From contig LXQJ01000012.1 of assembly GCA_001683895.1 (NCBI GenBank), positions 40,297 to 104,296 of the forward strand: a stretch of DNA of 64,000 nt, given 5' to 3'. The notes beneath the pieces were generated by a model. That model did not search any database and was not told the DNA's origin. It worked only from the letters and a program-made list of their open reading frames with translations. The DNA comes from Luteimonas sp. ANT-B3E. Lineage in GTDB: Bacteria > Pseudomonadota > Gammaproteobacteria > Xanthomonadales > Xanthomonadaceae. Made by a program: the position numbers and the translations under genes. Positions within the stretch are counted from its first letter, which is position 1. Each line of letters opens with the position of its first letter. Shown piece by piece: positions 6,752 through 25,976 of this stretch.

Positions 6752-6923
6752 CGTCGGGCTCTGGCGTTGGCGTGGTGCCATGGTATCGGCACGTCGGGGC
6801 GCGGTGCGCAACCAGGGTTGGCACGCAACCTGCGTACACCTCTGGCGCACCCGGAATGGCGGCGCCGTAGGGCGCGGCCGGAGATTGGAACAGGGCTGGC
6901 CACGTGCATGCCGGGGAAGCGCA

Positions 6924-6962
6924 GGGGTCGGACGTCGGGGGACGTCCGGCCCCGTTTTTTTT
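6924..6962 (+). terminator. Strong intrinsic terminator (12-bp GC-rich stem, then T8)
   Basis: GGGGTCGGACGT-cggggg-ACGTCCGGCCCC then GTTTTTTTT; oriented to stop plus-strand transcription. Confidence 0.8.
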
Positions 6963-20939: not shown

Positions 20940-22059
20940 GGCGGCAGCGACACGGCCGTCCGCGGCCTACGCCGCCGGCGCGGCCCGCGGGGACTGGAAC
21001 GACGATCCGGCGCAACACCCCGCGCTGCGCGAGCTCGACCGGATGCACGACGCGCTGGCACGTCCCGCCCCGCGCGGCCTGCTGTCGCGGCTGCGCGCGC
21101 GCGCCCCCGACCCGGTCCGCGGCCTGTACCTCTGGGGCGGCGTCGGCCGCGGCAAGACCTTCCTCGTCGACCTGTTCTTCGACGGACTGCCGCTGCCTGA
21201 AGTAAAGCGCGGCGTGACCGGCGCGGCGGGCAAGCGGCGCACGCATTTCCACCGCTTCATGCGTGACGTCCATGCGCGGCTGCGCGCACACGCCGGCGAG
21301 CGCGATCCGCTGGCCGCGATCGCGCGCGAGTGGGGCCGGGATGTGCGGGTGCTGGTGCTCGACGAGTTCTTCGTCAGCGACATCGGCGACGCGATGCTGC
21401 TGGCACGGCTGCTGGAAGGCCTGTTCGCCGAGGACGTGTTGCTGGTGACGACGTCCAACGCGGCGCCGTCGGCGCTGTACCCCGACGGCCTGCAGCGCGC
21501 GCGCTTCCTGCCGGCGATCGCGCTGGTGGAGGAGGCCTGCGCGGTGGTCGAGCTGGCCAGCGACATCGACTACCGGCTACGCGAACTGACCCGGTCGCCG
21601 GTGTACCGCACGCCGCTGGACGCCGGGGCAGACGACTGGCTGGAGGCGCGCTGGCACGCACTGGGCGGCGACGACGCGCACCGCGCCGGCGGGGTCGAGA
21701 TCGACGGACGGCGGATCCCGGTACGGGCGCGTGCGACCGGCATGGCCTGGTTCGACTTCGCGGCGCTGTGCGAGGGTCCGCGCGGCGCGACCGACTACAT
21801 CGAGGTCGCGCGCGAGTTCCATACCGTCTTCCTCGGCGGCATCCCGGTGTTCGACGCGCTGCGCGACGACGCCGCGCGCCGCTTCGTCACCCTGGTCGAC
21901 GAGTTCTACGATCGCCACGTCAACCTGGTGTGCACCGCCGACGCGGCTCCGCCGGCGCTGTATGCGGGCGAGCGCCTGTCCGGGGCGTTCGAGCGCTGTG
22001 CGTCGCGTCTGATCGAGATGCGCAGCGCCGAGTATCTGGCGTTGGCGCACCTCGAGTGA
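20932..22059 (+). CDS. zapE: Cell division protein ZapE (AFG1-like ATPase)
   Basis: GLYLWGGVGRGKTFLVDLFFDGLP; HFHRFMRDVHARL; LVLDEFFVSDIGDAMLL; GTG start overlapping the preceding stop. Confidence 0.9.
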   Translation: MVEAAATRPSAAYAAGAARGDWNDDPAQHPALRELDRMHDALARPAPRGLLSRLRARAPDPVRGLYLWGGVGRGKTFLVDLFFDGLPLPEVKRGVTGAAGKRRTHFHRFMRDVHARLRAHAGERDPLAAIAREWGRDVRVLVLDEFFVSDIGDAMLLARLLEGLFAEDVLLVTTSNAAPSALYPDGLQRARFLPAIALVEEACAVVELASDIDYRLRELTRSPVYRTPLDAGADDWLEARWHALGGDDAHRAGGVEIDGRRIPVRARATGMAWFDFAALCEGPRGATDYIEVAREFHTVFLGGIPVFDALRDDAARRFVTLVDEFYDRHVNLVCTADAAPPALYAGERLSGAFERCASRLIEMRSAEYLALAHLE

Positions 22060-22081
22060 GGATCTCGACGCCTCTCCCCGG

Positions 22082-22129
22082 ACACCAGATATTGCGTTGA
22101 CGGATCAGTGTGACCGCCCTATCTTGTGG
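22082..22129 (+). promoter_or_regulatory. Candidate NrdR box pair overlapping the nrdAB promoter (-35 TTGACG 22097-22102, -10 TATCTT 22120-22125)
   Basis: acaccagatattgcgt (22082-22097) matches about 13/16 of the NrdR consensus acaCwAtATaTwGtgt; weaker second site (about 10/16) at 22114-22129, 32 bp apart; 17-bp promoter spacer. Confidence 0.6.
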
Positions 22130-22130
22130 A

Positions 22131-22335
22131 TGTCGGTTCCCGCGGCCGCACGCCACGGGATGAAAAGGGAAGCCGGTGACGACCGTCGAGGTCCAGTCCG
22201 GCACTGCCCCGCAGCGGTTATTGGGAACGCACCTGTCATTGGCACTGGGACCCCGCGTCCCGGGAAGCGACAGGCAAGGTGACGGCCACGCGGCCGTCGT
22301 GCCCATGAGTCCGAAGACCTGCCGACAGCCGCGCG
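22131..22335 (+). ncRNA. Cobalamin (B12) riboswitch upstream of nrdAB
   Basis: Conserved blocks in order: gtcggttccc ... gggatgaaaagggaagccggtg ... tccggcactgccccgcagcggt ... gagtccgaagacctgcc (B12 box). Confidence 0.9.
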
Positions 22336-22403
22336 AAGCACGCCGCGCGGTACCGGCCGCGGAATCTCCGGGGTGAGATGGCTGGTGACGCCCACCCACG
22401 ATG

Positions 22404-22425
22404 CCGCCCGCGGCGTCGCGGGCGG
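22404..22425 (+). other. Perfect 9-bp hairpin between riboswitch and nrdA (candidate expression platform)
   Basis: CCGCCCGCG-gcgt-CGCGGGCGG. Confidence 0.5.
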
Positions 22426-22515
22426 TGCGACGCCGCCTTCCCACCCTGTGTGCCCGCCCGCCATGTCGCCTTCCGAGGGGAGGGCCGACCGGTGCGTCTC
22501 CAGGAACGCCACGCC

Positions 22516-24957
22516 ATGACCCATGCACCCTCCGACACCGCAACCCTCGATGCACCCGACGCGATCGACCCCTCCGCTCCAAGTTTCCTGCTGACGCCGC
22601 CCCCGGCCGCGGTGTCGATGCGCGTCGCCAAGCGCAACGGCGGCAGCGAGGCCGTCGACCTCAACAAGATTGTGCGCGCGGTGACGCGCGCGGCAGCCGG
22701 CCTGCACGCGGTGGACCCGATGCGCGTCGCCACGCGCACCATCTCCGGCCTGTACGACGGCGCCACCACGCAGGAGCTCGACGAGCTCTCGATCCGCACC
22801 GCAGCGCTGCTGACCGGTGAGGAGCCGGAGTACGGCCGGCTCGCTGCGCGGCTGCTCGCGGCCTACATCGCCAAGGAGGTCGCCGGTCAGGAGATCCATG
22901 CGTTCACGCAGTCGGTCGCGCGCGGCCACGAGGTCGGTCTGATCGGCGACCGCCTGCTCGGCTTCGTGCAGGCCAATGCGCGCAAGCTCAACGGGGCCAT
23001 CGACGCCAGCCTCGACCTCGGATTCGACTACTTCGGCCTGCGCACGCTGTACGACCGCTATCTGCTGCGCCACCCGCACACGCGCAGGGTCATCGAGACG
23101 CCGCAGCAGTTCTTCCTGCGCATCGCCAGCGCGCTGTCGGAGGACGTGCCCGAGGCGCTGGCGCTGTACCGGCGCATGGGCCAGCTGGACTACCTGCCCA
23201 GTTCGCCGACGCTGTTCAACGCCGGCACCCGCCACGAGCAGCTGTCGTCGTGCTTCCTGCTCGACTCGCCGCGCGACACGCTGGAGGCGATCTACGCCAG
23301 CTACGGCGACATGGCCCAGCTGTCGAAGTTCAGCGGCGGCATCGGCGTGTCGTACTCACGGGTGCGCTCGCGTGGGTCGCTGATCCGCTCCACCAACGGC
23401 CACTCCAACGGCATCGTGCCGTGGCTGAAGACGCTCGACTCCTCGGTCGCGGCCGTCAACCAGGGCGGCAAGCGCAAGGGCGCGGCCTGCGTGTACCTGG
23501 AGACCTGGCACGCCGACATCGAGGACTTCCTGGAGCTGCGCGACAACGCGGGCGATGACGCCCGCCGCACCCACAACCTCAACCTCGCCAACTGGGTGCC
23601 CGACCTGTTCATGCGCCGCGTCGAGGCCGACGCGGCGTGGTCGCTGTTCGACCCGCGGGTGGTGCCGGAGCTCACCGACCTGCACGGCGATGCCTTCGAC
23701 CGCGCCTACGCGCAGGCCGAGGCGCAGGGCAAGGCGCAGCGCACGCTGCCCGCGCGCAAGCTGTACTCGCGGATGATGCGCACCCTGGCCGAGACCGGCA
23801 ACGGCTGGATGACGTTCAAGGACAAGTGCAACCGCGCCAGCAACCAGACGCTGCGGCCAGGCAACGTGATCCACCTTTCCAACCTGTGCACCGAGATCCT
23901 CGAGGTCACCTCGGGCGAGGAAACCGCGGTCTGCAACCTCGGGTCGATCAACCTGGCGCACCACCTCGACGCGCACGGCGACGTCGACTTCGACCGGCTG
24001 GCGGAGACCGTGCGGCTGGCGGTGCGCCAGCTCGACCGCGTGATCGACCTCAACTTCTATCCGATCGAAAGCACGCGCCGCGGCAACATGCGCTGGCGCC
24101 CGGTGGGGCTGGGCTGCATGGGGCTGCAGGACGTGTTCTTCCGCCAGCGACTGGCGTTCGATTCCCCCGCCGCGCGCGCGCTGTCGGACCGCATCGCCGA
24201 GGCCATCTACTTCCACGCGCTGGACGCCTCGTGCGAGCTCGCCCAGGAGCGCGGCCGCCATCCGGCGTTCGCCGACACCCGCGCCGCGACCGGTGAACTG
24301 CAGTTCGACGCCTGGGACGTGGTGCCGGCGGACCAGGGGCGCTGGGACGCGCTGCGCGCGCGCATCGTCGAGCACGGCCTGCGCAACTCGCTGCTGGTCG
24401 CGATCGCGCCAACTGCGACCATCGCCTCGATCGCCGGCTGCTACGAATGCATCGAGCCGCAGGTGTCCAACCTGTTCAAGCGCGAGACGCTGTCCGGCGA
24501 CTTCCTGCAGGTCAACCGCTACCTGGTGGACGAGCTCAAGAAGCTCGGGCTGTGGACCGCGGAGATGCGCGACGCCATCAAGCTCGCCGAAGGCTCGATC
24601 CAGGGCATCGCCCGGATCCCGGACACGCTGCGCAACGTCTACCGCACCGCGTGGGAGTTGCCGATGCGCGCGCTGATCGACATGGCCGCGGGCCGCGGCG
24701 CGTACATCGACCAGTCGGCGTCGCTCAACCTGTTCATGGAGAGCCCCAGCATTGGCGCGATGTCGTCGATGTACATGCACGCGTGGAAGCAGGGGTTGAA
24801 GACCACCTACTACTTGCGCTCGCGCCCGGCGACGCGGATCGCCAAGACCACCGTCGGCCACGTGGCGGCGATGGCGCCGCCACCGCCAGAGGACGAGGAC
24901 GCGCAGGTGGTCGCCTGCTCGCTGGAGAATCCCGGCAGCTGCGAGGCCTGCCAGTGA
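22516..24957 (+). CDS. nrdA: Class I ribonucleoside-diphosphate reductase alpha subunit
   Basis: N-terminal ATP-cone (MRVAKRNGGSEAVDLNKI), SSCFLLDSP, NLCTEILE, FKRETLSGDF, redox-tail cysteines CEACQ at C-terminus. Confidence 0.95.
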   Translation: MTHAPSDTATLDAPDAIDPSAPSFLLTPPPAAVSMRVAKRNGGSEAVDLNKIVRAVTRAAAGLHAVDPMRVATRTISGLYDGATTQELDELSIRTAALLTGEEPEYGRLAARLLAAYIAKEVAGQEIHAFTQSVARGHEVGLIGDRLLGFVQANARKLNGAIDASLDLGFDYFGLRTLYDRYLLRHPHTRRVIETPQQFFLRIASALSEDVPEALALYRRMGQLDYLPSSPTLFNAGTRHEQLSSCFLLDSPRDTLEAIYASYGDMAQLSKFSGGIGVSYSRVRSRGSLIRSTNGHSNGIVPWLKTLDSSVAAVNQGGKRKGAACVYLETWHADIEDFLELRDNAGDDARRTHNLNLANWVPDLFMRRVEADAAWSLFDPRVVPELTDLHGDAFDRAYAQAEAQGKAQRTLPARKLYSRMMRTLAETGNGWMTFKDKCNRASNQTLRPGNVIHLSNLCTEILEVTSGEETAVCNLGSINLAHHLDAHGDVDFDRLAETVRLAVRQLDRVIDLNFYPIESTRRGNMRWRPVGLGCMGLQDVFFRQRLAFDSPAARALSDRIAEAIYFHALDASCELAQERGRHPAFADTRAATGELQFDAWDVVPADQGRWDALRARIVEHGLRNSLLVAIAPTATIASIAGCYECIEPQVSNLFKRETLSGDFLQVNRYLVDELKKLGLWTAEMRDAIKLAEGSIQGIARIPDTLRNVYRTAWELPMRALIDMAAGRGAYIDQSASLNLFMESPSIGAMSSMYMHAWKQGLKTTYYLRSRPATRIAKTTVGHVAAMAPPPPEDEDAQVVACSLENPGSCEACQ

Positions 24958-25976
24958 CTGCCGCCCGGCCCCGCCAGATGCTGCTCGACCCCGGCTTCGA
25001 GCTGACGCTGCGCCCGATGCGCTACCCGCAGTTCTACGAGATGTACCGCAACGCGATCCGCAACAGCTGGACCGTGGACGAGATCAACTTCCAGATCGAC
25101 ATCACCGACCTGCACGGCCGGATGTCGCCCGCCGACCGCCACCTGATCCACCGACTGGTGGCGTTCTTCGCCACCGGCGACTCGATCGTGTCCAACAACC
25201 TGGTGCTCAACCTCTACCAGCACCTCAACGCGCCCGAAGCGCGCATGTACCTGTCGCGCCAGCTGTACGAGGAGGCGCTGCACGTGCAGTTCTACCTGAC
25301 CCTGCTGGACAACTACCTGCCAGACCCGGCCGAGCGGGTGAAGGCGTTCGCCGCGGTCGAGAACATCCCGTCGATCCGCAACAAGGCCGCGTTCTGCTTC
25401 AAGTGGATCGATTCCATCCAGGGCCTGGTGCGCATCGAGACGCGCGCGCAGCGGCGCCGGTTCCTGCTCAACCAGATCTGCTTCGCGGCCTGCATCGAGG
25501 GGCTGTTCTTCTTCGCGGCGTTCGCCTACGTGTACTACTACCGCTCGCGCGGGCTGCTGCCGGGGCTGGCGTCGGGCACCAACTGGGTGTTCCGTGACGA
25601 AAGCGCGCACATGGACTTCGCGTTCGAGTGCGTGCGCCAGATCCGCGAGGAGGAGCCGGACCTGTTCGACGACAGCATGCGCGACGAGGTGTACGCGATG
25701 CTGGAGGAGGCGATCGCGTGCGAGGTGCAGTTCGCCGAGGACGTGCTGTCGGGCGGGGTCGCCGGCATCTCGACGCGCGACATGCGCCAGTACCTGCAGC
25801 ACTGCGCCGACAACCACTTCGTGCGCCTCGGCATGCCCAAGCGCTACGACGTGCGCAACCCACTGCCGTTCATGGAGCTGCAGGACGTGCAGGAGCTGAC
25901 CAACTTCTTCGAGCGCCGCGTGTCGTCGTATCAGGTCGGCGTGCAGGGAGAGGTCGGGTTCGACCATGCGTTCTGA
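24954..25976 (+). CDS. nrdB: Class I ribonucleoside-diphosphate reductase beta subunit
   Basis: QLYEEALHVQFYLTLLDNYLPD (E-x2-H-x3-Y), FRDESAHMDFAF; GTGA overlap with nrdA. Confidence 0.95.
   Translation: MTAARPRQMLLDPGFELTLRPMRYPQFYEMYRNAIRNSWTVDEINFQIDITDLHGRMSPADRHLIHRLVAFFATGDSIVSNNLVLNLYQHLNAPEARMYLSRQLYEEALHVQFYLTLLDNYLPDPAERVKAFAAVENIPSIRNKAAFCFKWIDSIQGLVRIETRAQRRRFLLNQICFAACIEGLFFFAAFAYVYYYRSRGLLPGLASGTNWVFRDESAHMDFAFECVRQIREEEPDLFDDSMRDEVYAMLEEAIACEVQFAEDVLSGGVAGISTRDMRQYLQHCADNHFVRLGMPKRYDVRNPLPFMELQDVQELTNFFERRVSSYQVGVQGEVGFDHAF

Follow-up and report, generated by a model that had tools for sequence, protein, structure and literature searches.

How might a bacterium that owns both a B12-independent and a B12-dependent ribonucleotide reductase set the output of the former, and which elements of its leader would do so? 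The question is raised by the nrdAB operon of Luteimonas sp. ANT-B3E, which lies within the 64,000-nucleotide stretch analysed here (the window) and for which an earlier note had proposed dual control by NrdR at the promoter and by cobalamin in the leader. The operon consists of nrdA (22516–24957, + strand), encoding the ATP-cone-bearing alpha subunit of the oxygen-dependent class I reductase (PF02867, PF00317 and PF03477; TIGR02506, 724 bits), and nrdB (24978–25976, + strand), encoding the beta subunit (PF00268, 257 bits); NrdA gave no match to defence-system families. The dual control proposed is supported by the NrdR box pair, the RF00174 match and the NrdR and NrdJ proteins encoded in the genome. 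As judged from sequence, we consider it very probable that nrdAB is under two layers of control, in which the box pair, a cobalamin aptamer and an L5 loop with two serial partner loops (H2 and H4) would all take part.

NrdR boxes, promoter and cobalamin aptamer

NrdR boxes were scored out of 16 positions against the reference ACACWATATATWGTGT. Box 1, ACACCAGATATTGCGT, at 22082–22097 (+) scores 13/16, reproducing the earlier estimate, is kept in relatives and is the only site of at least 13/16 in the 64-kb window (0.0 expected from 20 Markov simulations). The weaker box 2, CCGCCCTATCTTGTGG, at 22114–22129 (+) scores 10/16, lies exactly 32 bp further on and overlaps the −10 element, as had been read previously, and its consensus among relatives is CCCCACTATCTTGTGG. 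The two boxes form the only such pair at a spacing of 31–33 bp in the window, with none in simulated sequence, and are thereby arranged as in the NrdR regulon, where promoters carry two boxes separated by roughly three helical turns. They enclose a sigma-70-type promoter, TTGACG-17-TATCTT (22097–22125, +), that is the sole promoter-like site in 22040–22620, where 0.0 are expected by chance. Box 1 had been described as abutting the −35; the adjacency holds, but the precise position does not, as the two share one base. The promoter with its box pair recurs at 77 of 81 nrdA loci (80 relatives and the window), with or without a riboswitch, and 71 of these 77 have the exact 32-bp spacing. The genome (searched as 2.81 Mb in 57 contigs, 89% complete) encodes NrdR (TIGR00244, 197.8 bits against a cut-off of 124.65), and we infer that NrdR binds the promoter-covering pair and represses transcription when dATP is plentiful. 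The weakness of box 2 counts against two-layer control of nrdAB.

The leader contains a cobalamin riboswitch aptamer at 22117–22340 (+), in agreement with the earlier proposal, that matches RF00174 over the full model length with 101.2 bits (E 3.7e-24; gathering score 31.5). L5, the B12 box and P1 are intact, and the L5 loop core CCCCG (22207–22211, +) belongs to CTGCCCCGC, found in 41/41 riboswitch-bearing leaders. The transcript had been expected to start near the first conserved block of the riboswitch; we place the predicted start at about 22131–22133, 6–8 nt past the −10 and at the 5′ strand of P1, such that the aptamer would begin at about the first transcribed base of the nrdAB RNA. Elsewhere in the window, Rfam returned a match to asX1, a Xanthomonadaceae sRNA (6848–6959, +; 74.5 bits, gathering score 70).

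The presumed B12 repression of nrdAB had led to the prediction of a class II reductase or B12 uptake elsewhere in the genome, and both are present. The B12-dependent NrdJ is encoded (TIGR02504, 572 bits against a cut-off of 399.95), as expected for a B12-switched class I/class II reductase pair of the Streptomyces nrdABS type. One further cobalamin riboswitch, on contig C29 (L007:5798–10053, − strand), stands ahead of a TonB-dependent receptor, cobT (PF02277) and cobS (PF02654), and thus marks B12 uptake and salvage; its leader has just one hairpin capped by CGTGGG, located 28 nt upstream of the start. Neither of the genomic findings that the earlier note had named as fatal to its reading, no RF00174 match and no NrdR, occurred. 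Upstream of nrdJ, an 11–13/16 site near the gene start is followed 31–33 bp on by a weaker partner box in 17/17 genomes (16 relatives and the Luteimonas genome itself), which suggests that NrdR probably acts on both reductases, sensing dATP at the promoters of nrdAB and nrdJ alike, although the weakness of the partner boxes is again a point against the two-layer reading. Both enzymes would probably be limited by NrdR, with only the B12-independent one switched off by B12.

An expression platform with two L13-like hairpins

The platform between the aptamer and nrdA (22329–22516) follows an order shared by riboswitch-bearing relatives, namely H1, H2, a variable H3, a pyrimidine-rich stretch, H4 and the ribosome-binding site. 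The earlier note had delimited the feature as 22082–22425; its start stands, whereas its end does not, since the functional unit continues to the nrdA start at 22516. H1 (CCGCGCG/CGCGCGG; 22329–22350, +) has 99.6% of cells paired, with two pairs changed on both sides, and in the proximal, L13-like H2 (22353–22385, +) all four pairs of the inner helix show two-sided changes. Taken together, 6 of 17 pairs in H1 and H2 carry such changes, a value reached in 0 of 500 shuffles, and the pairing is lost when the pairs are slid. A covariance model of H1–H2 matches 124 of 199 family genomes and, in a 274-genome sample of the class, yields three matches only, all from family members. H3 (22404–22425, +) is the 9-bp hairpin of the earlier note and reads directly from the window; the picture of a lone hairpin before nrdA, however, gives way to that of a larger conserved platform, of which H3 is a member variable in sequence. 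The start-proximal, L13-like H4 (22468–22485, +; CGAGGG at 22474–22479) presents one loop on 26 distinct stems. All but one of its 33 aligned copies have three or more pairs adjoining the loop, and the total of 166 stem pairs exceeds the permuted mean of 88 and maximum of 123, indicative of covariation. Of the 41 leaders with an aptamer, 34 carry a CGNGGG hairpin no more than 90 nt from the start, as against 0 of 40 leaders that have no aptamer. The minimum-energy fold of the window platform (z −2.9) is a long mixed structure, and comparative evidence was therefore preferred. Rfam offered nothing credible as a second known RNA family 3′ of the aptamer at E up to 10. An upstream open reading frame beginning at an in-frame ATG at 22378, inside H2, was also considered and rejected, as several relatives have ACG there with the stem kept, so that it is not a conserved start.

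The L5 core CCCCG is complementary to both the H2 loop CGGGGT and the H4 loop CGAGGG, and CGNGGG could pair with it over five pairs if N bulges. Among the 41 riboswitch-bearing Lysobacteraceae nrdA leaders, there are on average 1.95 hairpins with a CGNGGG cap per leader; dinucleotide shuffles yield 0.14 (at most 0.34 in 200 rounds), and permuted versions of the motif never exceed 0.78; two are present in 35 leaders, three in 2 and one in 4. In the window, the strict motif occurs in H4 and in a stretch inside the H3 stem, whereas the H2 loop, CGNGGG in most relatives, is the still L5-complementary CGGGGT, a deviation that counts against the two-layer reading. The metE leaders of the family (n = 16) likewise have two hairpins in 12 cases, three in 1 and one in 3. 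Among uptake-type leaders (n = 15), nine have none and six have one, mostly located 28–30 nt ahead of the start; the L5 of these leaders carries an extra C. The metE leaders with a locatable start (L110, L114 and L149–L165) share the L5 of nrdA and usually have two CGNGGG hairpins; their distal stem GCGAAGG could alternatively pair with a CCTTCG further on. What appears to be new here is a duplicated ‘latch’ hairpin, common to nrdA and metE and missing from B12-uptake genes; a search of the open-licence literature found no report of serially arranged L13 hairpins.

In the mechanism that we favour, binding of B12 would lead L5 to pair with a downstream CGNGGG-type loop and nrdAB expression would be lowered, with the cell relying on the B12-dependent NrdJ. 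L5 would have two serial partners, H2 immediately downstream of the aptamer and H4 close to the nrdA start codon. The location of H4 suggests translation control, most likely through an effect on ribosome binding, and H2 may serve as an earlier checkpoint (by pausing or Rho) or as a holding partner. As a tentative proposal that we hold at somewhat below even confidence, L5 of the nrdA and metE riboswitches in Lysobacteraceae would engage the early and the later L13 hairpin serially, giving a tighter or two-level shut-off (elongation and translation) relative to the one-latch uptake riboswitches, with the sensing half decaying on loss of nrdJ and the rest of the leader being kept. An alternative that we put at just under even odds is that only one of the CGNGGG hairpins is a real L13, the other being structural or serving Rho or an RsmA/CsrA-type protein. 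RsmA/CsrA-type proteins also favour GGA in hairpin loops. In several leaders whose aptamer has been lost, H1 and H2 are retained and carry compensatory changes, so that H2 may act without B12, and uptake-gene leaders manage with at most one hairpin; against this, both loops keep the L5-complementary motif under diverging stems, and the arrangement is repeated in metE leaders.

The level of control bears on a further alternative. No intrinsic terminator (hairpin with U-run) was found on the + strand of 22040–22620, and the 9-bp stem of H3 has no U-run after it; a cobalamin riboswitch of the intrinsic-terminator type is ruled out on this strand, which makes translational or Rho-dependent control likely. 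That B12 works mainly on transcription elongation via Rho, rather than on translation, we judge unlikely, although several features speak for it: the missing terminator, a long leader reaching about 175 nt beyond the aptamer, the conserved pyrimidine-rich stretch after H3, and nrdAB reads of Propionibacterium acnes that seem to stop within the leader (PMC3848588). In this family, however, uptake riboswitches with one latch lie some 30 nt ahead of the start, a distance that suggests regulation of translation as the local habit.

Co-occurrence of aptamer and nrdJ, and decay of the aptamer

In 80 named relatives, the nrdA riboswitch was called by Rfam and/or a B12-box pattern, which agree in 60 of 60 Rfam-scanned loci, the other 20 being called by pattern alone. 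A riboswitch precedes nrdA in 40 relatives and NrdJ exceeds its cut-off in 42, and the two agree in 74 of 80 (38 with both, 36 with neither). Four relatives have nrdJ without the aptamer (L012, L017, L027 and L034) and two show the converse, an aptamer with no intact nrdJ called, namely L047, where nrdJ is truncated, and L087, a small and possibly incomplete MAG; these six count against the two-layer reading. Mapped onto a NrdA tree, the aptamer changes state just three times, and an independent-pairs test of aptamer against nrdJ is not significant owing to too few changes; with descent taken into account, the association, though consistent, does not reach significance. One of the loci, L012 (JAHREJ010000008.1), is titled Bacillus subtilis and holds a Stenotrophomonas-type nrdA locus, and is therefore mislabelled or contaminated.

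In aptamer-less leaders the promoter and NrdR boxes stay, often together with H1 and H2, and 14 of 40 such leaders have a CGNGGG hairpin at −127 to −168, the H2 position. Several lineages that lack nrdJ show decay of both the aptamer and the start-proximal loop but retain the promoter and the NrdR boxes (with four exceptions). S. pennii keeps an L5-like fragment at 18.7 bits in Rfam, below threshold; genus group g19 (probably Xanthomonas, without nrdJ) keeps the box pair and the H1/H2 stems, with the H2 loop motif missing; and genome G251, with no NrdJ over the cut-off evident, has a 72.7-bit aptamer with an altered L5. That the window riboswitch is itself a functionless relic of this kind is most improbable. 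Decayed versions are indeed common in related lineages and the window H2 loop is a variant, but decayed copies score below threshold, whereas the window aptamer reaches 101 bits with L5, B12 box and P1 intact, in a genome with NrdJ and uptake genes.

Several further observations accompany this series. In g19 (L129, L132) and G251 (L130), the nrdA leader and NrdR boxes precede a different class I nrdA (NF006665), as though the gene itself had been replaced and its leader retained. A candidate NrdJ in S. maltophilia was rejected, its partial TIGR02504 matches being a second class I NrdA (NF006665). In L090, L092, L093 and L094, a long in-frame insertion, probably an intein, interrupts the match to the NrdJ family, and three of these four genomes are Stenotrophomonas-like and have no nrdA aptamer. 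In Stenotrophomonas mori, the nrdJ match is confined to the C-terminal part (L095:1728–2927, −), and the nrdA aptamer is present with a low score (73 bits), which may reflect loss in its early phase. A sub-threshold Rfam match to a microRNA family (L016:1413–1477) in S. pennii corresponds to no more than a long inverted repeat ahead of nrdA.

Relation to known systems and significance

Control by NrdR is also a feature of Streptomyces coelicolor. In the passages of PMC4991794 and PMC5962746 that cite Borovok et al. (2006), its nrdABS operon is described as having a B12 riboswitch, beside nrdJ. The window locus resembles it in having a class I operon leader with a B12 riboswitch and NrdJ in the same genome, but that system is actinobacterial, and the comparison made here covers the riboswitch and nrdJ. 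In Propionibacterium (Cutibacterium) acnes, an NrdR box over the nrdAB promoter is combined with a cobalamin riboswitch, NrdR boxes are present at the nrdRJ promoter and the same logic has been proposed (PMC3848588); it differs in having one NrdR box at nrdAB, where Luteimonas has a pair, in transcripts that appear to terminate in the leader, and in a riboswitch at nrdDG as well. The L5–L13 kissing loop is the established switch of the cobalamin riboswitch class, with P. megaterium metE, E. coli btuB and env8HyCbl as examples (PMC10653944, PMC9600662). The RF00174 aptamer with L5 CCCCG and CG(N)GGG loops fits these known partners, with a possible one-base bulge in the pairing of the kind reported for env8HyCbl, whereas the described riboswitches have a single P13/L13 and the Lysobacteraceae nrdA and metE leaders usually two in series.

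As the circuit is known in P. acnes and Streptomyces, what is added here is a further family, its expression platform and the decay series. Combined NrdR/B12 logic at nrdAB, documented earlier in actinobacteria, is widespread in one gammaproteobacterial family that spans environmental, plant-associated and clinical genera, with a predicted division of labour in which NrdR would act on both reductases and B12 on one. The graded decay of the aptamer without nrdJ offers a natural series of riboswitch death in which promoter and downstream hairpins are kept, and the serial double-L13 platform, present at nrdA and metE and unseen at uptake genes, provides a concrete hypothesis for how a single aptamer may be wired to give a tighter shut-off.
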